Source: Deltaproteobacteria bacterium
GTDB taxonomy: Bacteria > Desulfobacterota > Desulfuromonadia > Desulfuromonadales > Geopsychrobacteraceae
Length of the DNA: 64,000 nt
Direction: 5' to 3'
Assembly (NCBI GenBank): GCA_024280335.1
Contig: JAJRQI010000049.1
Coordinates: 1 to 64,000 of the forward strand
In this document: positions 2,077 to 23,328 of the stretch, piece after piece
Numbering within the stretch: position 1 is the stretch's first letter
Layout: each line of letters starts with the position of its first letter
The notes under the pieces: model-generated
Databases searched by the model: none
What the model saw: the letters and a program-made list of their open reading frames with translations, nothing else
Told to the model about the DNA's origin: nothing
Made by a program: the position numbers and the translations under genes

Positions 2077-4302
2077 TCAACTCTCCTGTCGCACCCGCAG
2101 CTTGACCCGGGTGCCGGCGACGTTTCCTGCGGTCACCTCCAGGCTGCCGCCGATCATCTGCGCGCGGAAGGTCATAATCTTCAAGCCCATTCCGCGCCTG
2201 TTCTGCTGATCGCGTAGTCCGCAGCCGTCATCAGCCACCTCGAAAATTGCCGTATCATCGACCACCGTGCAGTTTATCGACAGCTGTTCGGCGTCGGCAT
2301 GCTTGACGGCGTTGTTGAGTGCCTCCTGGACGATACGGTAGACGTGCACGGCAGTTGTGGTATCGAGGCAGACCGCTCCTTGCCACTCTACAGTGCAGGG
2401 GAGGTCAAAAACGGTCTCCACCATATCTCCCAGCTGGCGAAGGCTCATCTCCAGCCCTTCCTCGACCAGATGTACCGGAGAGAAGCCGCGTGACAGCGCC
2501 CTGGTTTTCGCGATTGCCTCGCTGATGACTCCCTGCACCTTATCGGCCTGCTTGTCGGCTTCTTCGAGATTATCGCTCAGCCTGCGCCGCAGAAGTTTGT
2601 ACATAACGTCAAGGCCGATAAGGTGAGGGACCAGATCATCGTGGAGATCTTGGCCGATTCTGATCCGATCGCGTTCATCGGCGTCGATGACCTCCCGTTC
2701 CAGAAGCTTGAATTCGCTGATATCCCGCAGGATAATGACACAACCGCCGACGCTGCCGCCACTCTCCCGGAAGGGTCCGCCACTCATGTTGACCGTCAAC
2801 TGCTCGCCCCCTCGGGTCACCCGCAGCGACTCTTCGTCGGCCATGACTGCCCCGTTGAGAAGACCGGCCAGGTGCCGCCGCGAGCGCTGTCGCTCCTCGG
2901 CGGGGACGAAGGCGCGCGCCGACTCGGCGGAAAAATCCTCCAGCGTCCAGCCGAAGAGCCGCGTGAAGGCCTGGTTCAGGTAGCTGACTTCGCCCGCCAG
3001 GCCGAGGACCATAATCGGATCGGGGGCCGCCTCCATAACGGCGCGATAGCGCTCCTGTGAGGAGCGCAGCTTTTGCTCCACCTGCAGTCGCTCACGCGCC
3101 TCCTGTCCGAGATCGGTCAGAAAGCGATCAAACTGAGCCGAAAGCTGATCGACCTCGTCGCGGCCATGAAAAACCTTGTCCGGCGGAGTTTTTGCGAGTC
3201 TGGCGACCAGTTGCCTGATCGGATCGGTGATTGAGCTACTGACCTGAATGGCGACCATCACCCCGATCAGCAGGCAAAACAGTCCCGCAGCAAGGGTGCG
3301 GTCTCTAATGACCTGCAGCGGTTCATAGAGGTCATCCAGGTAGGCAGAGGCGGCAACGATCCAGCCGACCTCGGGGATGAAATCGTAGACCACGATCTTC
3401 TGCCGCGGCTCCTTGTCACCGGGATTCTGCCACAGGTAGCGCTGCTGGCCGTGTTTCTCTTTGATCATGGTACTGAGAAACTGGTCGCTATCGGGAAGGG
3501 CGATCTCGAAAGCGTTTTTACCGTCCTGTGAAGGGCGGACAATCAAATTGCCGTTCAGGTCCATGACAAAAGAGTAGCCGCTTTTACCGAATTTTAGCGA
3601 CTTGACGCTCTGGCTGAAATCGTCGACGTTGACGAGCTTTTCGAACTCATCCCGATAGGCGGTCACCGAGACGATCCAGTCCCAGGGTTCGAAATAGCTC
3701 ATGTAGAGCGCCTTGGCTCTGGACTGCTTCTCGCCGGGGTTTTTCCACTGGTATTCCAGATATCCTTCTTTGCGCCGGACCTGCTCGGCGACAAAATCCT
3801 GTTCGGAGAAATCGATCCCGACCACCTTCGGCGACGGATGGACGGTGGCGACAGCCTGGCTGTTGACGCAGTAGATATAGCCGGTCTGGCCGATCGATTG
3901 GCTCAAAAGGATCTCTGTCGCCCGTTTTTGCGCCGCTGCTTCGGTCAGTTCACCGCGCAACTGTTCGGCATGCAGCAGGAGCAATATCTCCCGGTTGGAT
4001 TCAGCGACTGCGCGCAGGTTGCTTCTGATGGAAAGACGCACCGAAGTCTCTACCATATTTCTGATCGTCTCGGTGGTATTGCGGAGTTCGCTGATGAGAT
4101 GGTTTTCGAGACTTTCACGCATCACCGAGTAGGAGACAAACCAGGTGATCAGGGCAAAAGAGAGCAAAACCAGCATCGAGGTCAGGATAATTTTATAGCG
4201 AATCGGCAGTGCAGAGAAAAACCAGTTGCGGAGCATAGCGTCAGTGTACCCGTTTCCCTGGAAGAGATTTTCAGAACCGATTCTTACCAGCTCATCATAC
4301 AA
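2077..4302 (-). CDS. membrane sensor histidine kinase (Cache-HAMP-PAS-HisKA_3-HATPase)
   Basis: Domain order for 741 residues: transmembrane helix about 36-56; a large periplasmic Cache-type ligand region about 60-330 with two similar halves (WKNPGEKQSRAKALYMSYF and WQNPGDKEPRQKIVVYDFI); second membrane helix about 333-353; HAMP; PAS about 413-540; HisKA_3 dimerisation motif QDLHDDL with His554 as phospho-acceptor; and a HATPase_c domain ending near 738. Cache domains of this type commonly sense small organic acids, which suits the neighbouring uptake and activation genes. The first ATG (4302) lies 8 bases after the acyl-CoA synthetase but has no clear ribosome binding site. An internal ATG at 4236 (MLRNWFFSALPIRYK) starts just before the first membrane helix and is a plausible alternative start. 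Confidence 0.92.
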   Translation of the reverse strand: MYDELVRIGSENLFQGNGYTDAMLRNWFFSALPIRYKIILTSMLVLLSFALITWFVSYSVMRESLENHLISELRNTTETIRNMVETSVRLSIRSNLRAVAESNREILLLLHAEQLRGELTEAAAQKRATEILLSQSIGQTGYIYCVNSQAVATVHPSPKVVGIDFSEQDFVAEQVRRKEGYLEYQWKNPGEKQSRAKALYMSYFEPWDWIVSVTAYRDEFEKLVNVDDFSQSVKSLKFGKSGYSFVMDLNGNLIVRPSQDGKNAFEIALPDSDQFLSTMIKEKHGQQRYLWQNPGDKEPRQKIVVYDFIPEVGWIVAASAYLDDLYEPLQVIRDRTLAAGLFCLLIGVMVAIQVSSSITDPIRQLVARLAKTPPDKVFHGRDEVDQLSAQFDRFLTDLGQEARERLQVEQKLRSSQERYRAVMEAAPDPIMVLGLAGEVSYLNQAFTRLFGWTLEDFSAESARAFVPAEERQRSRRHLAGLLNGAVMADEESLRVTRGGEQLTVNMSGGPFRESGGSVGGCVIILRDISEFKLLEREVIDADERDRIRIGQDLHDDLVPHLIGLDVMYKLLRRRLSDNLEEADKQADKVQGVISEAIAKTRALSRGFSPVHLVEEGLEMSLRQLGDMVETVFDLPCTVEWQGAVCLDTTTAVHVYRIVQEALNNAVKHADAEQLSINCTVVDDTAIFEVADDGCGLRDQQNRRGMGLKIMTFRAQMIGGSLEVTAGNVAGTRVKLRVRQES

Positions 4303-11026: not shown

Positions 11027-11059
11027 GATGTCCTGTAGGTATTGCACCTACAGGACATC
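11027..11059 (-). terminator. strong hairpin after the giant cytochrome gene
   Basis: A perfect 14-base inverted repeat (GATGTCCTGTAGGT / ACCTACAGGACATC) with a 5-base loop lies 48 bases after the stop of the minus-strand gene 11107-22620 and before livG. There is no immediate U-run; a run of T comes about 25 bases later on the minus strand, so termination may be imperfect or the hairpin may act as a 3' stabiliser. Confidence 0.65.
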
Positions 11060-11106: not shown

Positions 11107-14100
11107 TTATAGCCCCGGAACTTGGGTTGCCGTATTGTGGGCCGCAGAATCGGCGCTGCTGTTGCCAAGTTGGCCGAATATATTTTGTCCCCAGGCCCAG
11201 TAGCTGCCATTTTGCTTGACTGCCATGCCATGAAAACTGGTGGCAATACTGCTGACATCGGTCAGATAGGTTATCGGGTCCGTGTTGGGATTTTCGACGA
11301 CCTGAACCGGAACCAGAGAGTAGCCGGCGACCAAATGATCGCTATTATCTCCCAAGGCACCGTACGAGTTGTTGCCCCAGGTCCAGACCGTGCCGTCTGC
11401 TTGCAAGGCGATACTGTTCAGCTCGCCAGCTGAGATGGCTGCGATCCCGGTGAGTTGACCGACTCCCCCGGGACCTTTGACTGCGACCGGCAGCGAGCGT
11501 TGCTCTGTGCTGTTATCACCGAGGTTGCCGTAACCGTTCGTTCCCCAGGCGCGAATGGTTTTGTCATTTTTCAGGGCCAGACTGAATCCAGCTCCGGCGG
11601 CAATCGTGGTGACGTTGGAAAGAAATCCGGAGAGGTCAGTTGGATCGGTGACTTGCACCGCCGTCAGTTTATTTGTGCTATCGCTCCCCAGGCCGAGTTG
11701 GCCGTTATTGTTCTGCCCCCAGGCCCAGACCGTCCCGTCCGCTTTTAAAGCCAGACTGTGGCTGGCACCAGCCGAGACCGCAACGACACCGGTCAGGTAG
11801 TTTATCGGCACGGTGGTTGGATCTTCGATGACCTGCAGCGGCAAGGTTCGTTCTGTAGCCGTTGTGTTGTCGCCGATCTGACCGTACCAGTTCATCCCCC
11901 AAGCCCAGACCGTACCGTCATTTTTCAGCGCCAGAACGTGACCGTCGCCGGCCGAGACGCGGTTCACATCGCTCAGGTAGCCGCTGGGATCAGTGCTATC
12001 GATTACCTGTCTGGCGGAACATTCTTTGGTCGATGTCGCACCGAGGCCGAGCTGTCCGGCGCCGTTAAACCCCCAGCCCCAGACGCTGCCGTCCCGCTTG
12101 CTGGCAACCGCAAAGCGGCGACCGGCGGCAATCGACACGACCGTCTGCAGGTAGGTTACCGGAACCGTGCCAGGATCCTCAACGACCTGGATCGGGGAGC
12201 TGCGCTGAACGGTGGTGTTATCACCCAGTTCGCAGAGGCCGTTGTCACCCCAGGCCCAGGTGGTGCCATCCGCTTTTAATGCCAGGCTGAAACTCTCTTC
12301 AAAGAGGCTGGTATCGACCCGTAGCGGCGAGTCAATATCGCAGGCGGCGCCGATGCCGTCAGCGTCTCGATCGATCTGGCTTGGATTAGCCAGATTCGGG
12401 CAGTTGTCGCAGACATCGCCAAGTCCATCGCCGTCCACGTCGGCCTGGTTGCTGTTCGGAACCTGCGGACAGTTGTCGGCGGTGCCGTAGATTGCGTCGC
12501 CGTCGCCATCGGTGCCAGCGGCTCTGATAATACGGAAGCCGGTTCTGCGGCTGTTGGCGCTGGGAACTGCGGAGGCTCTGGAGGCGGAGCGGGCCTCTCT
12601 GACATAAGAATCGATACTTCCTCCACGCACCACCTTGCTGGTCCCGGTTGCCGGGCCGTTCGGATCTGTGCCCGGTGAGCTGAGATAGTAGTCAGGCACA
12701 TACCAATCCTGCACCCACTCAGCAACATTGCCGTGCATATCGTACAGTCCCCAGCTATTGGGGATTTTTTGCGCCACCGGTTTGATAGTGGAATAGGCGG
12801 AACGGCTCACCCAGCCGATAAGATCCAACACCGGGTCGCTATAGGATGATTCGGTCATCGCACCGTTGGCAAAAGCGAGCACGCTGCCTGCACGCGAGGC
12901 GTACTCCCACTGCGCTTCGGAAGGCAGCCGGTAGGTTCCCTGGCTCATTCCATTGAGAATTGTCAGAAAGGTCTGTGCGTCATCCCAGGAAACCGATTCA
13001 ACCGGGCAATCGATCCCGCAGGAAGGATCATCCGCTGGATTGGAGCCGGTCACCGCTTCCCACTGCCCCTGGGTTACCTCGGTGGTCTGCAGGTAATAGG
13101 GTTCGGAAAGCGTGACTAGATGCGGCGTCTCTCCTGAAGACCACTCATACTCTGCGGGAGGAACTTCACCGCTGCCGATCGGATATTCTGAGGTGCCGTC
13201 CGGGCTACCCATGGTAAAGCTGCCAGCCGGAATCAGCTGGAAAGTCATGCCGAAAACATTGCTGACGGTCGCTGCCGGTGGCCCGACCAGAACCGTCCGC
13301 GTGACCTGACTGGCGGCCACCCCGGCATCATCAACGGCATCGTAGGTGATGGTGTAGCTTCCTTCGGTTGCAGTGTCGAGCGTATCGCCGCCGATGATTA
13401 CCGCTGACGAAACAGCGCAGGCATCGGTTAGATTGGCACCCGCTTCAACATAGCTGCCGCCGACATCAATCCGCAGGGCCCGATTGCCGTTGAGGGTGAT
13501 GATCGGGGGGACGGTATCCTGCACGGTTACAACCCGGGTCACGGCAACGGCAGCATTACCCGCACTATCCGCAACGTTGTAATGCCGGCTGCTAGAACCG
13601 AGGATTGTTTCATCGACCGTACCGGCAACCGTGGCGCTCAATCCGATATCGCGATTGTCGCTGACCACTGCCCCCGGGTCGGCGAAGGGGGTGGCGCATT
13701 CATGGAACATGGCGGCCGGACCGATCAGGGTAATCACTGGCGCTTCAGTGTCTGCTGGCGCAGGCGGGTCGGCAACGGTGACGGTGACCATGTCTGCGGT
13801 TGAAGAACTTGGCCCATCCGCAACGATTAACCGGAGGGTATAGATTCCCGGCAGGTCTGCGGTGAAGGTGGGACTGACGGCTGAGCTGTCCGACAGCGCG
13901 GCACTGCTTGCGGCCGGTTTACCGGTGAGGGTCCAACTGTAAGTAAGTGGTGAGCCTTCCTGATCAAAACTGCCGCTGCCGTCAAGGGTGATGATCGCTT
14001 CGGTTAGCGCAACATGGTCAAGACCCGCATCGGCGACCGGTGCGTTTCCGGTACCGAAATAGCCGATCACGATCCTGCCGACAGAAGGGGTCACTGCCGT

Positions 14101-17100
14101 ATCGGTCGAAGCGAGATTCAGCCGATACTGGATATATCGGTCACCGTCGCTTACGCAGCTATTGGCCGAGATGTCGGTGCCATAAACTACCGCTGCGCAG
14201 CTGTCCCAGTCCGCTGCTCCGGCCATGGTCGCGTCATTCGAGGTCCTGACCTTGACCTGGATCGAGGTTGAAACCGGCAGGGCTTCGTCCCAGACGATGC
14301 TGTTGAAGCCCAGGTTCGATTCGGTGTCGTAGATCGTTGACGTGTAGTCGCCTGACCCCTGATAGGTCGAATCGAGCGTATAATAGTACGGGCTGTCGGA
14401 CATATCTGCACAACCACCGTAGACATTTGCGTAGATAGCAAAATGGGGGTTTTCGGTCGAATCGATGGCGATCGAGGTCTGGTAATCGCCGTCCGCGCAG
14501 GCGCCCTGATAATATCCAGGTTCGATTAGCCAGCTACCGGAGGCATTGGTGGCGTAGTAATGACCTTTTTGGGTTTTGTTAAGGTAACTGATATGCACCT
14601 TGTCAAACCGGTCGATGGCAATCGCGGGTGATTGTCCGACGCTGCCGGTGGCATCGATCGTTGTGCTGACCCAGCGACCGGAGGCATTGGTGGCGTAGTT
14701 GAGATCCTCGGCAGCCCCATCGAAATAAGCGGCGTGCAACGTCCCCCTGGAATCGATCGCCAGGGCTGAAGAGCGTGGATTCGCCCCAGGCCAGTCGATG
14801 ACCGTGTCGTGCCAGATTCCGGCAGAATTGGTCGTGTAGACCAGCTCGCCGGTGCTGATCCGGATGTGAATAACATGGATTTTGTCGTTGCTGTCGATCA
14901 CCAGAGATGGCATATAGCCACAATCGCCTGCGGTTGAGGCAATCAGCACTTCAAACCCGCCACCGGCAAGCTGTCGGGCGTATTTCAAGTCACCATTCTG
15001 GCTGAAGGCGATATAAGGCAGGTCGCCGGAGTCGAAAGTAAGGGCGATATCCTGCTCAAAGTCGCCGATATCCTGCTGTTGCACGACCCAACTACCGGTT
15101 TTGTTGGTGGCATAGAAGAGTGCTGGCGATGCAGCCCAGGCGATATGGGCCTTGCCGCTGCTGTCGAGGCCGAAGGCGCTGCCGCTGCGCTGCTTGGCGG
15201 CAACAACCTCGGCGGCAAAGCTGCCTGAGGTATCGCTACTGTAGACGGTCTCATAGTAGTTGTTGTAGTTGATATGCGCCTGATCGTCAGCATCAAGAGC
15301 CAGCGACACACCGTAGCGACCATCGTGATAGCGCACGCTATATTTCGGATCGATTAGCGGACTCAGATCGGTGGCTGTCTTTTGCAGCGTGATGTGGTCG
15401 GCCAGTTGACTGCTCGAGGTCTGGCTCAGCACCGACCCGGTGCTTTCAAAGTCGGCTCGGCTATCCTGTACCCAGACTTCGCAGGCGTTGCCGATCCCGT
15501 CACTGTCACCATCCTCCTGCCCCGGATTGGCAATGTCGGGACAGTTGTCGCGGGAGCAATCGAACCCTTCGGCGCTGCCCAGAACGGCAACCGGCTCCAG
15601 TGCAGTATAGCGCCTGACCCTGATCCAGTCGTAGGAGGTGTCCTGGATATTGCTGCTGGCGCTGCCGTCATAACTGCCCAGCGTCAGATAGCGCAAATCC
15701 TTTGTCCAGTTCACGCCGGTCAGAGAACTGGTTACGCGGTAATCGTTCCAGAGTTCGACCCTGTTCCCGGTAACGGATATCCCCGTTACATACCAGTACC
15801 GATCCAGCGAGTCCCAACCGTTGAGACCGCCGCCGCTGCTCAGGTTGAAGCTGGCCGCAGCGCCATCGGCAGCGCGGTAGCTGACCGTTTGGGTACTCTG
15901 ATTGCGCAGTTGAAATACCGCCGCAGCACTGGCGGCGTTGTCAGCGCTGGCGAATCGGGAGGAAGAAATCCCCGGCACCAGACCCGACCGGGCGGTATCG
16001 AACGCATCAAAGCGGACCCGACTCTCAACCATATAGCCATCCTGAAGCCGGTATGGCAGCTGGTTTTGCAGAGCTAATCCGCCGCTGTTTAACCTGAGCG
16101 TTCCGGCGTTAACCGAATAGTCATCTGCGGCAAGCGACCAGCGGTCGATATCGAGAGCGCTAAAATCATCAAACAGGAGGAAGACCTTTGCGCCGTCGCT
16201 TTCCGCGGCCAAGGTTTCATCCCCATAGTACAGCCAGGCGGTAGCGCTGTAGGCCGACTTAATCCAGACGGTGGCGGTGTCGCCGACGATACTCTCTACC
16301 CAGTAGGGCAGTTTAACCTTGGCGCTTTCTGTAGCGTAAAAACGCAGGTCATGAAAATCATCCTGCATGCCGGGATAATTTGCTCGCTCAATCCGCAGCC
16401 GGGTCGGCCAGTTTGACTTGAAGTTGTAGATGGCAATGGCTGCCCGGTTGGGCTGACAGGCGGTAATGTCGTTTGCGTAAACCCCATCACCATCCGAATC
16501 GTCGGCGACACTGTAGGGGCTGACGTCGCAAACATTGCCACGGCCATCCTGATCGCTGTCGGTCTGTTCGGCGTTGGCTACCGCCGGGCAGTTATCCTGC
16601 CCCAGACAGATGCCGTCTCCATCGCCATCGCCATTAAAAGTGTAGTTGATCGTCAGCGCGGCAAGGGAGGGGCTCTGTGACGGATCGGTCGTGGCAAGGG
16701 TGGCCTGATATTGCAGAAAGCTGTCGCCGTCGGTTACGCAACTGCTGGCAGACAGGTCGAGGTTGCTGCTCACGCCGCTGCAGCTGCTCCAATCGGCGGC
16801 ACCGGTCATGGTAGCGCTGTTTGAGCTTCGCACTTTCAGGTTCAGCGTCGTGTTGTACGGTTGCAAGGCGCTGAACTGGATGGTGTCGTAGCCGAGATTC
16901 TCGCCGGTATCATAAATAACCGATTCGTAACTGCCTGCGGTTGCATAGACGGCAGTCGCCAGTTCAAGGTGGCCGATATTGTTGACCCCGTGTACCTGTA
17001 CCGGTTGCGCTACGGTGCTGTTTAAACCGTTGCCGAGCTGGTAGGAGGTGCCGGTCCCCCAGCAGTAGGGGGTGCTGCTTTGAGAAACCACGCAGGTATG

Positions 17101-20100
17101 GCGTCCGTTATCAATGTTGCTGATGCCGGTCAGGTAGCTGCCGTCGTGATCCCCGGTTGCCGCCTCCCCTTTGGCCACAAAGGCAGGGGAGTTGGTATAG
17201 ATATCCCAACAATAGGTATAATTCGCGGATGCGGCACAGGCACCTGCGTAGCTGGCGGCGATATGCTCAATATTGCTTAAATAGAGCCCCTCGACATCCG
17301 CAGCAACCGCATCGCCCGCCGGGATTCTGGCCGGGTCGCTGGCCACCCCGCCGACATTGCCCCAACAGTAGGCCGCACCGCTGTTTGAAATAGCACAGCT
17401 GTGCGAGCTGCCGGGATTACTGCCCGAGGATATTGTTTTGATATTGCTGAGATAGTCACCATCCTGGTCAAAAAATAGCGCTGCGCCTTTTTTTACTCGG
17501 TGGGGGCCATACTTTGGCAGCGCCACGTCGTTATAATCTTTGCCCCAGCAGTAGGCATTGCCGCTCTTTGTCACCGCGCAGGTTCGACCGCCGCCAACCG
17601 AGAGGTCGGCAATGTTATTCAGGTAGGTTCCATCGGAGTCGCTGTCCGCCTGGCCGCGGACAATTCTGGCCGGGGTGCTCTGGTCCGCCCAGTCGACTCC
17701 GCCCAGCCGCCCCTGGTAGCCGTCGCCCCAGCAATAACCGTAGCCGCTCTCCGACACCACGCAAGCCCGGCTGCTGCCAGCACTGACGGTCTTGATGTTG
17801 GCCAGATAGGTGCCGTCATGGTCGCTGGCAGCGGCCTGACCTTTCAGAACTCTGACCGGAGTATGCTTTTCGATGTTGCTGGCGTCGCCGAGGGTCGACT
17901 CATAGTTGGCACCCCAGCAATAAACATTGCTGTTATTGGAGACCGCACAGGTGAAATAATCTCCCGCAGAGACGGTTCTGATGTTGGCCAGATAGGTGCC
18001 GTCATGATCTCCGTTTGCCGCCGCACCTTTTAGTACCCGGACCGGAGTGGGGCGGGTAAGGATGCTGTCATCGCCAAGATTGCCGCCGCCATAGCCTGGA
18101 TAGGAACTGTTATTGCCCCAACAGCTTACGCTGCCATCGTTGGCAAGGGCGCAGCTGTGATCATAGCCAGTGGTTATCTGGGCAATAGAAACCTTGTTCG
18201 GTGTCGTCAGCGTGATGCGGTTGTTGTCGGTTTGCGTCGCGGTAAATGTGCCGGGCGCAAAATCGAGTTCCCCGCTCTGCTGCCAGCTCGAATAGTCACA
18301 GTCACAGGCATCGCCGACCCCGTCACCGTCGGCGTCAGTCTGCTCGCTGTTGGCGGTGGCTGGACAGTTGTCGATAGCGCCGCAAATGCCGTCACCATCG
18401 GCATCGTTGTCCGCATCGGCCGGGCACGAATCGCAGCGGTTGCCGATGCCATCGTAGTCAGCGTCCAGTTGGTCACTATTGGCCACATCAGGGCAGTTGT
18501 CATAACTGCCGCAGAGGCCGTCCCCGTCGGTATCGTTACCGGGATCGGTCGGACAAACATCACAGGCGTCACCGCTGCCGTCGCCATCCGAATCGGTCTG
18601 GTCGGTATTGGCAATCGTCAGACAATTGTCACAGCTGTCTCCAATACCATCAGCGTCGAGATCCGACTGATCGGCGTTGTATTTTGTCGGGCAATTGTCG
18701 CAGGCATCGCCATAGGCATCCACGTCACTATTGAGCTGGTCCGGGTTGGCGCTGGTCAGACAATTATCGCAGAGATCGCCGATCGCATCATTGTCGATAT
18801 CCGACTGATCGGCGTTGGGTGTCGTCGGGCAGTTGTCGTTATCGGCCAGTTTGGGTGGCCGGAAACCTGTTCCTTCACAGACCGCGTCATTATCCTGATC
18901 GTTGTTGGCATCAGCGGGGCAGAATTCACAGGCATCGCCGATGCCGTCGTTATCCGCATCTAGCTGCTGCCAATTGGGCGTATCAATACAGTTGTCACAA
19001 ACATCGCCGCTGCCGTCGCCGTCGCTGTCGGTCTGGTCGGTATTCGGCCCGGCGACACAGTTGTCCTGAGCATCGGCGATGCCGTCATTGTCCATGTCGA
19101 AATTCTCAGTGAAGAAATGCGGCTTGAAGTCTCTGAGGTACCAGCCATCCAGTGACGAGGTTTCTACCGGCCCGAGTCCTGCCGCGAGGGTTGTTGCATC
19201 CGGTTCGGAATGGCAGTTGCCACAGGTCGGATTGGAGATGATCGCTCCGCCTTGGTTAAAGGCCGGGTCAGCCCACAAAGAGCGATCGGTTAATTCAATA
19301 TAGTTGTCGTCAACGGCATTGTACTGCAGAACCCGCAGATCACCGTTTTCGCCGCTGCGCGTCATTGCGGGACGGATGGTGCCATGCGGGTCATGGCAGA
19401 ACACACAGGAGCTGTTGATCTCCCAGGTTGATTCTTCAATATGCAGGAAATGATAATTGTAGGTGCCGAAATCCGGGCGGTTGTCAGATCTGAAATTAGT
19501 CTCCAGGTTAACCCCGCTATCTGCCGGATCAGCCTTTATCCAGGCGGCATCATGACAGCTGTAGCAAAGCGCAAAATCGGTATCTTCGGTGGGGAGTTGT
19601 TTCGGAAGCTCCAGCCCTTTGCCCGGATAAAAACGATAGTTGGTAGGACTATTGGTCGCAACTTCCGTAGCCAGGTGGTCGATATGCTGCTGTTTCAGAT
19701 CGTGGCAATTGCTGCAAGCCATGTTGTGACCGGTAACAAAATAACCCCAGCTACTGTTGTCGCCCAGAACATTGCCAGCCGAGACGCCGCTGCCGTCCTG
19801 TTTTGAGTTGGCCGGAACATCGTCATGACAGCCGCTGCACCACAGCTGTTTGTCGAAGGGGAGTTGGCCGTTGCTGTACACGCCGGTTTGCCAGTTACTC
19901 TTCGCGCCAACGATCGCATCGTTGACCCCGTCGATAACGCCGCCGGGACTATGACAGGCATCACATACTGCGGTGTTGGCAAAATCCTCGCCATCCTTGA
20001 AGTCGGGGAAGTTGTTTATGTCGTGGCAGGCATCACAGCTGATGTTCGGCCCCTTCTGGTCGTCGGCATCATTCTCGGTATGGGTCGAGTGACTCTGGGT

Positions 20101-22620
20101 GGTCCCTGCGCCGCTATTATCAGCATCCTTGCCGTGGCAATCGCCGCAGTCGCTGCTGGTTCCGCTGCCGGCATGGGCGAAGCTGGCGCTGTGCGAGTGA
20201 CACTCGATGCAGGAGCTGCCGGCATTGCCCTGATTATGATTGCCGGGGTGGTTGCTGTCCGGGTGGGCGCTGTCGGCGACTGCGTGGCAGGCGTCACAAA
20301 CGCCGTCGTCCGGAGCACTGCTCGGGTCGAGATCGCTCAGGTCAAGGTCGCTCGCCTCAAAGCCACTGATGCTGACCGGGTTGCTGACGCCGGCAAGCTG
20401 GCCGTCGATGGTTTCGAGGATCATCGCCAGCTTGCGGGTGCCATGGACCTCATGACAGGCTTCGCACTGGTAGCCCGGATTAGCGGCATAGTCGGCGCTG
20501 TCGCCGTAGGCGGGAAAAGCGGCGGCGGCAGCGGTGTTGAAGCTGCCACTGAGCGCCCCGGAATGGATCGAGGCTTCGGCCAGCGCGTCGTAACCGAGCG
20601 CGCCGCTGTTGGTCTGGCCGACCTGGTGGCAATCGAGGCAGACTTCACTGATCTTTGAGGTTTCATTGCGACCGTCATCCGGAACGCTGGCGAGCCGGGT
20701 GGCATCGCCGAGGCTATGGCTGAAATGGGGCAGAGCGCTATCGTGGCAGACCGCGCACTGATAACCGGGGCCGCTCTGACCGTGCAGGGTGGCGTTGTAG
20801 CCGCTGGTCACGCCGTGGCCGGTGACATAGTAGCCGTAGCTGTCGTTATCGCCCGCCTTGTCGGCGGCGGCAACGCCGCTGCCGTCTGCCTTACTGTTGG
20901 CCGGTGCGCTGTCGTGACAGCTGACGCACCATAACTCTTTGCCCGGCTGCAGACTGCCAGCGGCGTCATAGATGCCGTTTCGCCAATTGGCTTTGACGCC
21001 GTACAGGGGACTGTTGATGCCGTCAAAAGCACCACCGGCACTGTGACAACTGTTGCAGACATCGGTTTCCGCTAAATCAAAGCGACCGTCACCATTGATA
21101 TCGGTCCCCGATTTAAAGAAGGGGAAGTTGCTGATGGTGTGACAGGTATCGCAGTAAATTCCCGGACCGCGCTGATCGTCACTGTCAAGCTCGGTATGGG
21201 TCGAGTGACTCTGGATCGTTCCCCGTCCCTGGCTGGCAACGGTTCCAGCACTGTAGGGGGCGGAGGAATCGGGGTCATAGAGGGTCCCGCTGTCGTGGCC
21301 GTGACAGACCACGCAGCCGTTACCGCTGCTGCCGCGGCCGTGATGAGTGACCTCTTTGTCGGTGTGGCAGGAGGGACAAGTTATCCGGGTACCGCTTACC
21401 CCATGTTGAATCGCCTGCCGGACACTGCCCGCGTTAAGGATTGTGCCGGTATAATTATGGCAGAGTGCACAGTTTGAGCGGTGCAGTGCGTCAACATCCG
21501 CAGCGCTGACCAAGGTGCCGCTACCTGCCGAGCCGAGAACCGAGGTGTCGCTGGTATGACAAGGACTACACCCTGCATCGATGATCCGATTGTCATGCGC
21601 CGTACCCGTTATATGGCCTGCTGCACGGTTTTCGTGACAGCTGTCGCAGCTGATGTTCGGTGTCACGGCCAGAACCTTCGGCCAGACCGTCTGAGTGCCC
21701 CATTTATGCAGTAAATCATTCGGATCGTGACAGGATTTGCATTCGATGGTCATACCGGCGGTCATGCCGTTTCCGTCGCTCAGAACCGTCCGCCCATAGT
21801 GGCCGGGCAGAATATTGCTGACCAGCGGCGCATGGCAGCCGGCGCAGGAGCTGTCCGGGGGAGTCGTCAGGTCATGCAGCCCTGTCCAGGCCAATGGATC
21901 GAGATGGCACCAGACGCAGGTTTCGCCATCAAAAGTCAGGTCCGCGCCGTTACAATCCTGGTCGATTCCGTCGTAGGGAATGTCAAGGGCATCGGGATGG
22001 ATAGTGGCGTCATTATCATTGCAGTCATCAGCGACAGCGCCGCATGAAGTGAGGCCATAATAGCCGTCTCCATCGGTGTCTGTGGGTGTAAATCCATCAT
22101 CAACCTGGCCGTTGCAGTCGTTATCAAGACCATCACAGGTCTCGACGGCACCGGGGTAAACGTCGGTATTTTTATCGTTGCAATCATCAGCGCTGCCGGC
22201 GCAGGATCCAATCCTGGTGAAACCGTCCAGATCGGTGTCAAAATCGCATCGGTCTGTTGATAAAATCCCGACGTCCCCGGCAAAATCAGCAGCACCGGTT
22301 GATATGGTTATTGTGCCAAAAATACCTGTAGGCGTCGCTGTTTTGGTCGTAAAAGAGCAGTCATAGCCGCCATCGAACACGACCGATCCACCATCAAGAA
22401 ATAGATCTTCGGTAAAGATTTCACCCGAAAGTTGTAGCGTAAAAGCAGTCAGGGCCAAAGTTGTACTGGCGTAATCATAGGCATCCTGGATGGATGTCGG
22501 GCTGTAGACGTCCCCGACGATCTTTGCCGGAGGAATGCAGGCTGCAAAGGAATCGTTCTTAGCGGAGGGGAAAAACAGCAAGAAAAAGCATGCTATAACG
22601 ACGAAAAACCCTTTATACAT
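11107..22620 (-). CDS. giant secreted multiheme cytochrome with RCC1 propellers, TSP3 repeats and FGE-sulfatase fold
   Basis: About 3837 residues. The ATG at 22620 is preferred because GGAGG lies 7 bases upstream; the ATG at 22626 is only 1 base from it. Approximate order: signal peptide (YKGFFVVIACFFLLFFPSA); two MopE-type metal-binding motifs with DCND and CDGLDNDCNG (about 140-235); 24 CXXCH heme motifs (about 237-1138); thrombospondin-3 calcium repeats (about 1180-1440); seven RCC1-like repeats each with a C-x9-C-W pair (about 1485-1875); TSP3; a DUF2341/concanavalin-like region (about 2065-2350); repeats with YATNASGSW (about 2430-2750); PKD and HYR-like Ig folds (about 2860-3110); FGE-sulfatase fold (about 3120-3370); TSP3; seven more RCC1 repeats to the end. 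No membrane anchor is seen. Probably exported, with hemes added in the periplasm, and exposed outside. It stands alone between two minus-strand units. A role in extracellular electron transfer is inferred. Confidence 0.9.
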   Translation of the reverse strand: MYKGFFVVIACFFLLFFPSAKNDSFAACIPPAKIVGDVYSPTSIQDAYDYASTTLALTAFTLQLSGEIFTEDLFLDGGSVVFDGGYDCSFTTKTATPTGIFGTITISTGAADFAGDVGILSTDRCDFDTDLDGFTRIGSCAGSADDCNDKNTDVYPGAVETCDGLDNDCNGQVDDGFTPTDTDGDGYYGLTSCGAVADDCNDNDATIHPDALDIPYDGIDQDCNGADLTFDGETCVWCHLDPLAWTGLHDLTTPPDSSCAGCHAPLVSNILPGHYGRTVLSDGNGMTAGMTIECKSCHDPNDLLHKWGTQTVWPKVLAVTPNISCDSCHENRAAGHITGTAHDNRIIDAGCSPCHTSDTSVLGSAGSGTLVSAADVDALHRSNCALCHNYTGTILNAGSVRQAIQHGVSGTRITCPSCHTDKEVTHHGRGSSGNGCVVCHGHDSGTLYDPDSSAPYSAGTVASQGRGTIQSHSTHTELDSDDQRGPGIYCDTCHTISNFPFFKSGTDINGDGRFDLAETDVCNSCHSAGGAFDGINSPLYGVKANWRNGIYDAAGSLQPGKELWCVSCHDSAPANSKADGSGVAAADKAGDNDSYGYYVTGHGVTSGYNATLHGQSGPGYQCAVCHDSALPHFSHSLGDATRLASVPDDGRNETSKISEVCLDCHQVGQTNSGALGYDALAEASIHSGALSGSFNTAAAAAFPAYGDSADYAANPGYQCEACHEVHGTRKLAMILETIDGQLAGVSNPVSISGFEASDLDLSDLDPSSAPDDGVCDACHAVADSAHPDSNHPGNHNQGNAGSSCIECHSHSASFAHAGSGTSSDCGDCHGKDADNSGAGTTQSHSTHTENDADDQKGPNISCDACHDINNFPDFKDGEDFANTAVCDACHSPGGVIDGVNDAIVGAKSNWQTGVYSNGQLPFDKQLWCSGCHDDVPANSKQDGSGVSAGNVLGDNSSWGYFVTGHNMACSNCHDLKQQHIDHLATEVATNSPTNYRFYPGKGLELPKQLPTEDTDFALCYSCHDAAWIKADPADSGVNLETNFRSDNRPDFGTYNYHFLHIEESTWEINSSCVFCHDPHGTIRPAMTRSGENGDLRVLQYNAVDDNYIELTDRSLWADPAFNQGGAIISNPTCGNCHSEPDATTLAAGLGPVETSSLDGWYLRDFKPHFFTENFDMDNDGIADAQDNCVAGPNTDQTDSDGDGSGDVCDNCIDTPNWQQLDADNDGIGDACEFCPADANNDQDNDAVCEGTGFRPPKLADNDNCPTTPNADQSDIDNDAIGDLCDNCLTSANPDQLNSDVDAYGDACDNCPTKYNADQSDLDADGIGDSCDNCLTIANTDQTDSDGDGSGDACDVCPTDPGNDTDGDGLCGSYDNCPDVANSDQLDADYDGIGNRCDSCPADADNDADGDGICGAIDNCPATANSEQTDADGDGVGDACDCDYSSWQQSGELDFAPGTFTATQTDNNRITLTTPNKVSIAQITTGYDHSCALANDGSVSCWGNNSSYPGYGGGNLGDDSILTRPTPVRVLKGAAANGDHDGTYLANIRTVSAGDYFTCAVSNNSNVYCWGANYESTLGDASNIEKHTPVRVLKGQAAASDHDGTYLANIKTVSAGSSRACVVSESGYGYCWGDGYQGRLGGVDWADQSTPARIVRGQADSDSDGTYLNNIADLSVGGGRTCAVTKSGNAYCWGKDYNDVALPKYGPHRVKKGAALFFDQDGDYLSNIKTISSGSNPGSSHSCAISNSGAAYCWGNVGGVASDPARIPAGDAVAADVEGLYLSNIEHIAASYAGACAASANYTYCWDIYTNSPAFVAKGEAATGDHDGSYLTGISNIDNGRHTCVVSQSSTPYCWGTGTSYQLGNGLNSTVAQPVQVHGVNNIGHLELATAVYATAGSYESVIYDTGENLGYDTIQFSALQPYNTTLNLKVRSSNSATMTGAADWSSCSGVSSNLDLSASSCVTDGDSFLQYQATLATTDPSQSPSLAALTINYTFNGDGDGDGICLGQDNCPAVANAEQTDSDQDGRGNVCDVSPYSVADDSDGDGVYANDITACQPNRAAIAIYNFKSNWPTRLRIERANYPGMQDDFHDLRFYATESAKVKLPYWVESIVGDTATVWIKSAYSATAWLYYGDETLAAESDGAKVFLLFDDFSALDIDRWSLAADDYSVNAGTLRLNSGGLALQNQLPYRLQDGYMVESRVRFDAFDTARSGLVPGISSSRFASADNAASAAAVFQLRNQSTQTVSYRAADGAAASFNLSSGGGLNGWDSLDRYWYVTGISVTGNRVELWNDYRVTSSLTGVNWTKDLRYLTLGSYDGSASSNIQDTSYDWIRVRRYTALEPVAVLGSAEGFDCSRDNCPDIANPGQEDGDSDGIGNACEVWVQDSRADFESTGSVLSQTSSSQLADHITLQKTATDLSPLIDPKYSVRYHDGRYGVSLALDADDQAHINYNNYYETVYSSDTSGSFAAEVVAAKQRSGSAFGLDSSGKAHIAWAASPALFYATNKTGSWVVQQQDIGDFEQDIALTFDSGDLPYIAFSQNGDLKYARQLAGGGFEVLIASTAGDCGYMPSLVIDSNDKIHVIHIRISTGELVYTTNSAGIWHDTVIDWPGANPRSSALAIDSRGTLHAAYFDGAAEDLNYATNASGRWVSTTIDATGSVGQSPAIAIDRFDKVHISYLNKTQKGHYYATNASGSWLIEPGYYQGACADGDYQTSIAIDSTENPHFAIYANVYGGCADMSDSPYYYTLDSTYQGSGDYTSTIYDTESNLGFNSIVWDEALPVSTSIQVKVRTSNDATMAGAADWDSCAAVVYGTDISANSCVSDGDRYIQYRLNLASTDTAVTPSVGRIVIGYFGTGNAPVADAGLDHVALTEAIITLDGSGSFDQEGSPLTYSWTLTGKPAASSAALSDSSAVSPTFTADLPGIYTLRLIVADGPSSSTADMVTVTVADPPAPADTEAPVITLIGPAAMFHECATPFADPGAVVSDNRDIGLSATVAGTVDETILGSSSRHYNVADSAGNAAVAVTRVVTVQDTVPPIITLNGNRALRIDVGGSYVEAGANLTDACAVSSAVIIGGDTLDTATEGSYTITYDAVDDAGVAASQVTRTVLVGPPAATVSNVFGMTFQLIPAGSFTMGSPDGTSEYPIGSGEVPPAEYEWSSGETPHLVTLSEPYYLQTTEVTQGQWEAVTGSNPADDPSCGIDCPVESVSWDDAQTFLTILNGMSQGTYRLPSEAQWEYASRAGSVLAFANGAMTESSYSDPVLDLIGWVSRSAYSTIKPVAQKIPNSWGLYDMHGNVAEWVQDWYVPDYYLSSPGTDPNGPATGTSKVVRGGSIDSYVREARSASRASAVPSANSRRTGFRIIRAAGTDGDGDAIYGTADNCPQVPNSNQADVDGDGLGDVCDNCPNLANPSQIDRDADGIGAACDIDSPLRVDTSLFEESFSLALKADGTTWAWGDNGLCELGDNTTVQRSSPIQVVEDPGTVPVTYLQTVVSIAAGRRFAVASKRDGSVWGWGFNGAGQLGLGATSTKECSARQVIDSTDPSGYLSDVNRVSAGDGHVLALKNDGTVWAWGMNWYGQIGDNTTATERTLPLQVIEDPTTVPINYLTGVVAVSAGASHSLALKADGTVWAWGQNNNGQLGLGSDSTNKLTAVQVTDPTDLSGFLSNVTTIAAGAGFSLALKNDKTIRAWGTNGYGNLGDNSTEQRSLPVAVKGPGGVGQLTGIAAISAGELNSIALQADGTVWTWGNNSYGALGDNSDHLVAGYSLVPVQVVENPNTDPITYLTDVSSIATSFHGMAVKQNGSYWAWGQNIFGQLGNSSADSAAHNTATQVPGL

Positions 22621-22907
22621 TTTCATGCCTCCACACTATTTCTCAATAAATTATGGTTGGAAAAGCTGATAGGAATTATTTTTTCAGGAAATATTTATAC
22701 TGCTTCTAATGAGCAAATATCACACCAAAAAGCCGTAGAATGCGTGACGAAATGAGTCTTAGTTTGGACAGGCTTGTGAATTGACAAAATTTTTCTGATA
22801 ATTATTTTACACCCATCTTGCGGGACAACTATCCTCCTTTAGTTTTACAGATTTCTAAATGGCCATATCACTGAGCCTAACAGTTATATTCTAGTAATTT
22901 AACGCAC

Positions 22908-23229
22908 AAAGACCTGACCGATCAGTCCCCCGCCGAAGACAGCGCTACCATCCGCGCCAGAGTTAACCAAGCCCGCCAAAATCCAGCGCGACCGCCTGAC
23001 CCCCTTCGGTCTCCATGCCAACAGTCAGATGCAGGCGCGGCATATCCGACGTTTCTGTACGCTCGATGAAAAGGGTGCTCAGCTGCTTGAGCAGGTCACC
23101 GATAAGCTTGGGTTGTTTGCGCGTAGTTTTACCCGGATTCTCAAGCTTGCTCGGACGATTGCTGATCTGACCGGAGTTGGTCAGATTGAGACACTACATT
23201 TGGCTGAAGCGATTCAGTATCGGGGGTAG
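22908..23229 (+). pseudogene. comM: comM/yifB (Mg-chelatase-like) C-terminal fragment, frameshifted
   Basis: The plus strand reads KDLTDQSPAEDSATIRARV followed by NQARQ, then, after one extra A near 22977-22980, shifts frame and continues IQRDRLTPFGLHANSQMQAR and HIRRFCTLDEKGAQLLEQV to the family ending LKLARTIADLTGVGQIETLH, LAEAIQYRG, stop. This matches the C-terminal end of YifB/ComM proteins (typically RARV..AR, RRFC.LD, RILK.ARTIADL, EAIQYR). All upstream parts, including the ATPase core, are missing. It is therefore a remnant left by deletion or insertion, with a later frameshift. It lies between the giant cytochrome gene and an AT-richer patch. Confidence 0.8.
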
Positions 23230-23328
23230 ATCGGAAGTTAGGGTGAGAAGGCTGATTAAGATGAAAATTACGTTAGGCAACTTTAAAGTCGCAGACCCTA
23301 TTGATGCATCCGCAATCGCTTTTTCCAC

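Follow-up and report, generated by a model that had tools for sequence, protein, structure and literature searches.

How electroactive bacteria stay electrically connected to minerals and partner cells over long times is not yet understood, and one reading frame in the DNA analysed here (the window, 64,000 nucleotides in all) brings it down to a single gene: what is a protein for that carries 24 heme-binding motifs in its front part and a long chain of extracellular modules behind them? Hemes and binding modules in one chain would make attachment and electron transfer testable via one gene. The gene is real and unusual, and it belongs to a broader pattern whose interest exceeds that of the gene alone.

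Reading frame and domain order

The gene is a single open reading frame on the minus strand (22626..11107; 3839 aa plus stop) without an internal stop codon. Its first in-frame ATG (22626) lies one base behind a GGAGG and the second (22620, codon 3) seven bases behind it; because the latter distance is the better one, the second ATG may well be the true start, giving 3837 aa. The end at 22620 given in a preliminary description of this DNA is thus a plausible start, whereas the frame itself is open from 22626. The frameshift that the same description had named as a danger was not found, the frame being unbroken over 11107-22626 with exact repeats of at most 28 bp inside it. The GC3 content, taken in steps of 200 codons, was 0.50 in the first step and 0.59-0.78 thereafter, with no abrupt step later. 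The junction between the heme part and the thrombospondin-3 (TSP3) repeats was seen again in other genomes, where the start of the window tail aligns to the tail starts of relatives (L123, 45% over 174 columns; L103, 48% over 172 columns; L100, weaker), which argues against an assembly join at that junction. It is the only junction with an outside witness, none having been found for the others in this ORF.

The chain from residue 30 onwards has a computed mass of about 399 kDa without hemes and a computed pI of 4.2, and beyond the signal peptide it has no strongly hydrophobic segment (best mean hydropathy after residue 60, 1.33). Read by eye, the residues at signal cleavage, after a charged stretch, are FAAC in the window protein (SFA|AC), HAAC in the paralogue L001 and the lipobox-like LAAC in two relatives (L002 and L065), so that the window protein may or may not carry a lipoprotein anchor. 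Downstream of the stop codon, a 15-pair hairpin was found (window 11027-11059, minus strand; a 91-base stretch reached a z-score of -4.5 as RNA); it fell short of the T-run expected of an intrinsic terminator and was not scored as one. A tRNA and Rfam scan of the window (gathering thresholds) returned no match.

Pfam families above their cut-offs in the ORF were RCC1, FGE-sulfatase, TSP_3, Bact_surface_Ig (twice), Cytochrome_C7, MopE (twice), DUF2341 and PKD (Table 1). The 24 heme motifs, TSP3 repeats, two RCC1 propellers and FGE-sulfatase fold of the preliminary description were all recovered by Pfam and motif count, and the order it had proposed, from a multiheme part through calcium-type linkers to binding folds, was upheld by Pfam and reading. 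The MopE motifs, the seven-fold repeat, the doubled beta-sandwich, DUF2341, the PKD domain and the two Ig domains were absent from it.

Table 1 Features of the window protein and their positions in the window (aa, residues of the 3839-aa chain).
Feature	Window position	Strand	Basis or remark
Whole ORF	11107..22626	-	3839 aa + stop, or 3837 aa from 22620
Signal peptide, aa 1-28 (SFA|AC)	22543..22626	-	read from sequence; hydropathy
N-terminal domain, aa 29-125, common to two paralogues, beta-rich by eye	22252..22542	-	
Two MopE-type metal-binding motifs, aa ~148-225	21952..22185	-	PF11617, two stretches, best 148-177; second by reading
24 CXXCH heme-binding motifs, aa 237-1139	19210..21918	-	motif count
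Heme cassette copy 1, aa 430-636, five CXXCH	20719..21339	-	profile alignment
Heme cassette copy 2, aa 798-997, six CXXCH in span	19636..20235	-	profile alignment, tree
TSP3 block 1, aa 1176-1446, 26% Asp+Glu	18289..19101	-	Pfam, structure match
RCC1 propeller 1, aa ~1470-1895	16942..18219	-	Pfam
Beta-sandwich-like repeat copy 1, aa ~1896-1998	16633..16941	-	self-comparison; fold by eye
TSP3 block 2, aa 2000-2062	16441..16629	-	by reading
DUF2341 (aa 2090-2164) and LamG/ConA-lectin-like stretch	15607..16359	-	Pfam for DUF2341; rest by eye
TSP3 block 3, aa 2357-2384	15475..15558	-	reading and motif
Third propeller-like domain, seven repeats, aa ~2430-2745	14392..15339	-	motif count
Beta-sandwich-like repeat copy 2, aa ~2757-2857	14056..14358	-	self-comparison; fold by eye
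PKD domain, aa 2861-2951	13774..14046	-	Pfam
Two Ig-like domains, aa ~2960-3114	13285..13749	-	PF16403 (Bact_surface_Ig), two stretches, best 3043-3114
FGE-sulfatase fold without FGE cysteine pair, aa 3131-3368	12523..13236	-	Pfam, alignment to structures
TSP3 block 4, aa 3372-3432	12331..12513	-	domain search, reading
RCC1 propeller 2, aa ~3446-3830, C-terminal end of protein	11137..12291	-	Pfam

The heme part and its relatives

Between residues 237 and 1139, adjacent CXXCH motifs (24 in all) stand 21-61 residues apart, and 32 further His occur between residues 237 and 1175 beside the 24 proximal ones, enough for bis-His ligation of all 24 hemes. The DNA pattern TGYNNNNNNTGYCAY matched the window 31 times against 3.9 expected from shuffles (largest, 9), with 24 of the 31 matches on the minus strand within 19210-21918. 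The motif number, the spare His ligands and a signal peptide assigned by reading are those of a c-type multiheme cytochrome, with putative heme loading. No CXXCK motif was found in the protein, nor did it match the MtrC/MtrF pentaheme domain II/IV (PF22113) at an E value of 0.01. Compared with solved structures, residues 1-1174 matched no cytochrome chain at E values up to 1, the filament cytochromes OmcS, OmcE and OmcZ included; the same search gave a weak match to the 'surface-associated protein' 2vov (E 0.031), which we take to be MopE. Likeness to the DmsE decaheme family was far below the cut-off (51.5 bits vs 192.2).

Residues 1-430 are common to two paralogues in the same genome, both without a scaffold tail: one of 710 aa with 17 CXXCH motifs (71% identical; L001:5767-7899) and one of 1247 aa with 35 (64% identical; L002:7287-11030). 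Among 277 genomes of the class, a model of the N-terminal part was matched over most of its length only in the own genome (G000) and one of the same genus (G076), while in seven further genomes the match was confined to the MopE part; a search against named genome records gave no relative of this module. Both matches in G076 sit in ORFs cut by contig ends, and none of the tail matches listed falls in that genome. The MopE motifs, fewer than 100 of the 3839 residues, are common to the tail-less paralogues and occur also in heme-free giant proteins of the class. Near L001, we noted an apparent cytochrome b gene, more multiheme genes and a 719-aa protein that by eye resembles a beta-barrel.

The remaining heme part (residues 430-1173) has relatives in at least 10 of the 277 class genomes; this count and those of 103 and 145 given below include the own genome and are lower bounds, since only the first few candidates per genome were scored. 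An alignment of nine cassettes (A2), used on a species-level genome collection, retrieved 68 loci of many phyla, with titles that include Desulfuromonadales, Desulfobulbaceae, Nitrospirae, Calditrichota, Chlorobiota, Phycisphaerae and Gammaproteobacteria; almost all of these titles belong to metagenome bins, and a Methanophagales archaeon is among the weakest matches. The two copies in the window protein were found with i-E values of 3e-86 and 6e-48. A heme-free tail of at least 500 aa follows in 48 of the 68 cassette ORFs and in 36 of the 50 complete ones (counts of loci, not species, some being near-copies or from one genome), and one of at least 1000 aa in 23 of the 68; the other 14 complete ORFs lack a tail of 500 aa. 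A heme-free front longer than 300 aa is present in four cassette ORFs, of which three are titled Phycisphaerae and one is titled Planctomycetota. In the planctomycete relatives L145, L146, L152 and L157, the heme-free part precedes the hemes.

A Pfam scan covered 52 of the 68 cassette ORFs, those left out being mostly cut, duplicate or short. The families found were beta-helix (24 ORFs), GEVED (17), TSP_3 and LamG (4 each) and, more rarely, NHL and Golvesin_C (3 each) and SBBP, Calx-beta and fn3 (2 each), with the propeller families SGL and NHL seen in three members each of the second scanned set, which includes the planctomycete relatives; RCC1 was not among the families listed for the two sets (25 of 27 and 25 of 25). 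The MtrC/MtrF II/IV domain was found in 23 of the 52 relatives (9/24 and 14/28). In a quick tree without bootstrap, built from alignment A5 (the window and 57 of the 66 cassette hits), cassette copy 2 falls together with L123, L103 and L100 and no others (97% SH-aLRT), the three loci whose tail starts align to that of the window. Phylum labels on the tree are clustered but mixed (23 changes, against a least possible number of 9 and a shuffled mean of 31.8), to which paralogues and binning errors may add. A profile search of the PDB with the cassette alignment gave 18 weak matches, mostly to other cytochromes (best E 0.00019), and one with 24 whole relatives (A3) gave 8, the best on the beta-helix part and none to an MtrC-type chain. 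A structure model of the cassette (mean pLDDT 68) showed no known fold, with two meaningless matches in Foldseek and none in VIA.

Tail modules and other giant multiheme genes

The TSP3 repeats (acidic, DxDxDGxGDxCD-type) scored 97.5 bits in Pfam against a cut-off of 25 (four stretches, best 1344-1386) and match the structures of COMP and thrombospondin-2, with an acidic content of 21-26% in the three blocks measured. Ten RCC1_2 and seven RCC1 stretches were found in the ORF (RCC1-like domain, 475 bits); the RCC1_2 matches form two groups of five, giving two propellers, and are all of those in the own genome, where FGE-fold matches occur also in other ORFs. A further motif occurs seven times between residues 2442 and 2719, 43-50 residues apart, and nowhere else in the protein, while 2000 shuffled versions of the stretch gave 0.06 on average and never more than 2; since the pattern had been derived from the repeats themselves and was loosened after a stricter version had caught five, this is an after-the-fact test. 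A self-BLAST control was uninformative, with no HSPs for the real or the shuffled sequence; no Pfam family matched the repeat, and a single-sequence AlphaFold2 model of it reached a pLDDT of 34. Seven such units are what a seven-bladed propeller would show, and we call the domain propeller-like. The domain present in two copies, behind RCC1 propeller 1 and behind the seven-fold repeat (48% identical over 99 aa), is read by eye as a beta-sandwich.

The FGE domain matches formylglycine-generating enzymes and Treponema variable protein 1 (E 4.8e-24 to 4.8e-23). In the LCHDSYCNRYR stretch of 6muj and 2q17, whose Cys pair we take to be the active-site pair of the enzyme, one Cys stands opposite a gap and the other is aligned to Val in the window protein. 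A formylglycine-generating enzyme was therefore rejected: the absence of these cysteines points to the fold and not the enzyme, and speaks for binding and against catalysis. The fold is internal here, not C-terminal; targets of diversity-generating retroelements with the FGE/C-type-lectin fold are C-terminal in known cases.

No relative of the tail as a whole was found in the 277 class genomes, where listed matches cover at most ~400 residues; parts of it have matches in at least 145 of them, the own included. The search for the same domain order that the preliminary description had called for found the whole architecture neither in these genomes nor in the 68 cassette relatives. Its picture of a lone oddity did not survive, as the cassette and the design of hemes plus scaffold recur widely and RCC1 propellers follow another multiheme part as well. 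A 2229-aa ORF in genome G161 (L048:10870-17556) carries 19 CXXCH motifs, fn3 and RCC1 by Pfam, with a larger RCC1 ORF upstream, and genome G159 (L062) has a multiheme-fn3-RCC1 ORF by reading. Both are from the same class and, similar to the window protein, have RCC1 propellers behind a multiheme part; L048 differs in lacking TSP3 and FGE in Pfam, and its heme part, with relatives in at least 103 of the 277 genomes, has no BLAST match to that of the window at 1e-8. Its RCC1 propellers and those of L062 were probably recruited separately from those of the window.

Within the clade of cassette copy 2, the tails differ (SBBP repeats and TSP3 in L103, Ig-like domains in L100, TSP3 with SBBP and GLUG in L123, the RCC1/FGE chain in the window), which from these four looks like an exchange of tails behind one cassette. 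On sequence comparison, then, the window protein is a mosaic with kin, made of a shared N-terminus, a widespread cassette and a changing tail.

Two further loci deserve mention. On JAQYVZ010000001.1 (G008:C150; MAG Desulfuromonadales Pyr_d60_bin35), an array of giant multiheme genes spans ~197.9-238.6 kb (L049, L085 and L084, of which L084 is also L103). It consists of seven consecutive same-strand ORFs of 1239, 1343, 1302, 2312, 3724, 1789 and, for the seventh, which runs off the contig, at least 1423 aa; each has 16-22 CXXCH motifs in the parts read, and several carry scaffold tails. At L088:8516-19000 (the L099 gene), a multiheme ORF stops in mid beta-helix and the frame continues for 2192 aa with beta-helix and Calx-beta. 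The idea that this locus holds a multiheme gene and, behind it, an independent partner gene was rejected because the same frame runs on past the single stop codon; it is probably one giant fusion broken by a stop, through mutation or record error.

Function, alternatives and known systems

On balance, and with modest confidence, we read the protein as an exported multiheme c-type cytochrome of a Desulfuromonadales bacterium, whose calcium-stiffened tail of binding domains, the C-terminal two thirds of the chain, holds the hemes against a surface. The hemes would be attached in the periplasm before the chain is exported to the cell surface; the genome has a gene for a type II secretin (GspD, above cut-off), and outer-surface cytochromes of this group are usually exported by type II secretion. 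Electrons from other cytochromes would enter the row of closely spaced hemes and pass along it, while the TSP3 blocks would take up calcium and make the joints between binding domains stiffer, and the propellers, Ig domains, DUF2341 and FGE fold would bind polysaccharide, mineral or a partner cell and keep the heme arm there, much like an electron wire that brings its own clamp. The intact ORF, the 24 CXXCH motifs with spare His, the domain order, the mosaic origin and the recurring design are shown by the sequences; export, heme loading, conduction and the binding of calcium and targets we infer. In favour of this reading also count the long heme-free tails of the cassette relatives, with their modules of extracellular type, and the presence in 23 of 52 of these relatives of the MtrC/MtrF II/IV domain, which belongs to outer-surface cytochromes. 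Against this reading stand the lack of any outer-membrane conduit (MtrA/MtrB-type) or other cytochrome gene by Pfam among 20 neighbour ORFs (window 138-42393), the lack of matches to MtrC/MtrF and to solved cytochromes, the empty fold searches and the complete cassette ORFs without a 500-aa tail. The neighbours include a branched-chain amino-acid ABC transporter, a histidine kinase, an ArsP_1-family permease (upstream) and a DEAD helicase; the genome as a whole is rich in multiheme genes (54 Cytochrome_C7 matches). On the plus strand upstream of the gene, at ~22980-23230, lies a remnant that by eye resembles a ComM/Mg-chelatase-like C-terminus.

With ~2700 of the 3839 residues in the scaffold and no electron-transfer gene recognised among the 20 neighbours scanned, the protein might instead be chiefly a matrix or adhesion protein, whose tail forms a biofilm or sheath and whose hemes serve as redox buffer or charge store. 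We regard this as rather unlikely, as the close spacing of the hemes, their spare His and the conservation of the cassette across phyla are expected if heme packing matters. Less likely still is a reductase at the surface that acts on some soluble or particulate substrate (a metal, a humic substance or another) and for which the tail is no more than a tether: the DmsE likeness and the MtrC/MtrF-type domain in cassette relatives point that way, while the protein has no CXXCK motif and no substrate-specific partner gene was recognised among the 20 neighbours scanned.

The two MopE motifs, the weak match to 2vov and the predicted ArsP_1-family permease upstream would fit a scavenger of copper or another metal, in which these motifs and the acidic TSP3 blocks collect the metal and the hemes are secondary; the smallness of the motifs and their presence in tail-less paralogues and heme-free giant proteins make this very improbable. 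An artefact that wrongly joined unrelated genes is hardly credible. It would account for an architecture seen in no other genome searched and for RCC1_2 matches confined to this ORF, and the assembly is in 72 contigs with an outside witness for the heme-TSP3 junction only; that junction does recur elsewhere, the frame is unbroken without an abrupt GC3 step after the first 200 codons and with a longest exact repeat of 28 bp, and the tail is knit together by its four TSP3 linkers and by the domain that it contains twice.

Beyond the single gene, we tentatively propose a cross-phylum class of electrically wired adhesins, in which one conserved cassette would be combined with exchangeable giant binding tails, each tail choosing the surface (mineral, polysaccharide or partner cell). 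The window protein, with two cassettes, a TSP3-strung chain and an RCC1 end, would rank with the most elaborate members seen. The recurrence of one cassette across many phyla, each time with another tail, would also allow metagenomes to be searched for such contacts by sequence (alignments A2 and A5).

As a kind, giant cytochromes fused to extracellular domains are already known. The closest concept found is that of the ANME giant cytochromes MHC-A, MHC-B and MHC-C, which have 20 to 86 heme motifs per chain and large heme-free extracellular domains, S-layer or pectin-lyase-like, in the same chain, the pectin-lyase-like domain of ANME type C being discussed as possibly recognising partner cell walls (PMC9012536). 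The beta-helix tails of many bacterial cassette relatives appear alike in kind to that domain. The ANME cytochromes are archaeal, whereas the window protein has TSP3, RCC1, FGE-fold and Ig modules, no C-terminal helix and no S-layer family in Pfam. During extracellular electron transfer, Desulfuromonas acetexigens, a member of the same broad group as the window host, expresses very large cytochromes of up to 86 heme motifs, described in the accessible text by heme number and not as fused scaffolds (PMC12133095), and the accessible parts of two Geobacter papers hold nothing on fused scaffolds (PMC12977616, PMC2825233). MtrC, MtrF and OmcA are linked to the cassette relatives through domain II/IV, and the five-heme cassette of the window protein, in two copies per chain, is a further likeness; the window protein differs in its 24 heme motifs, its giant tail, its lack of a PF22113 match and the lack of recognised MtrAB genes among the 20 neighbours scanned. 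The open-access literature, most subscription journals lying outside the search, yielded no paper on multiheme cytochromes with RCC1, thrombospondin type 3, beta-helix fusion or beta-propeller adhesion, and nothing that describes this architecture or a single cassette with varying tails; the statement in the preliminary description that no characterised protein of this architecture was known thus still stands.

One weak cassette match, whose assignment is possibly a bin error, lies in a record titled Methanophagales (ANME-1; L165) and consists of a 1747-aa ORF with 13 CXXCH motifs and an 802-aa tail.
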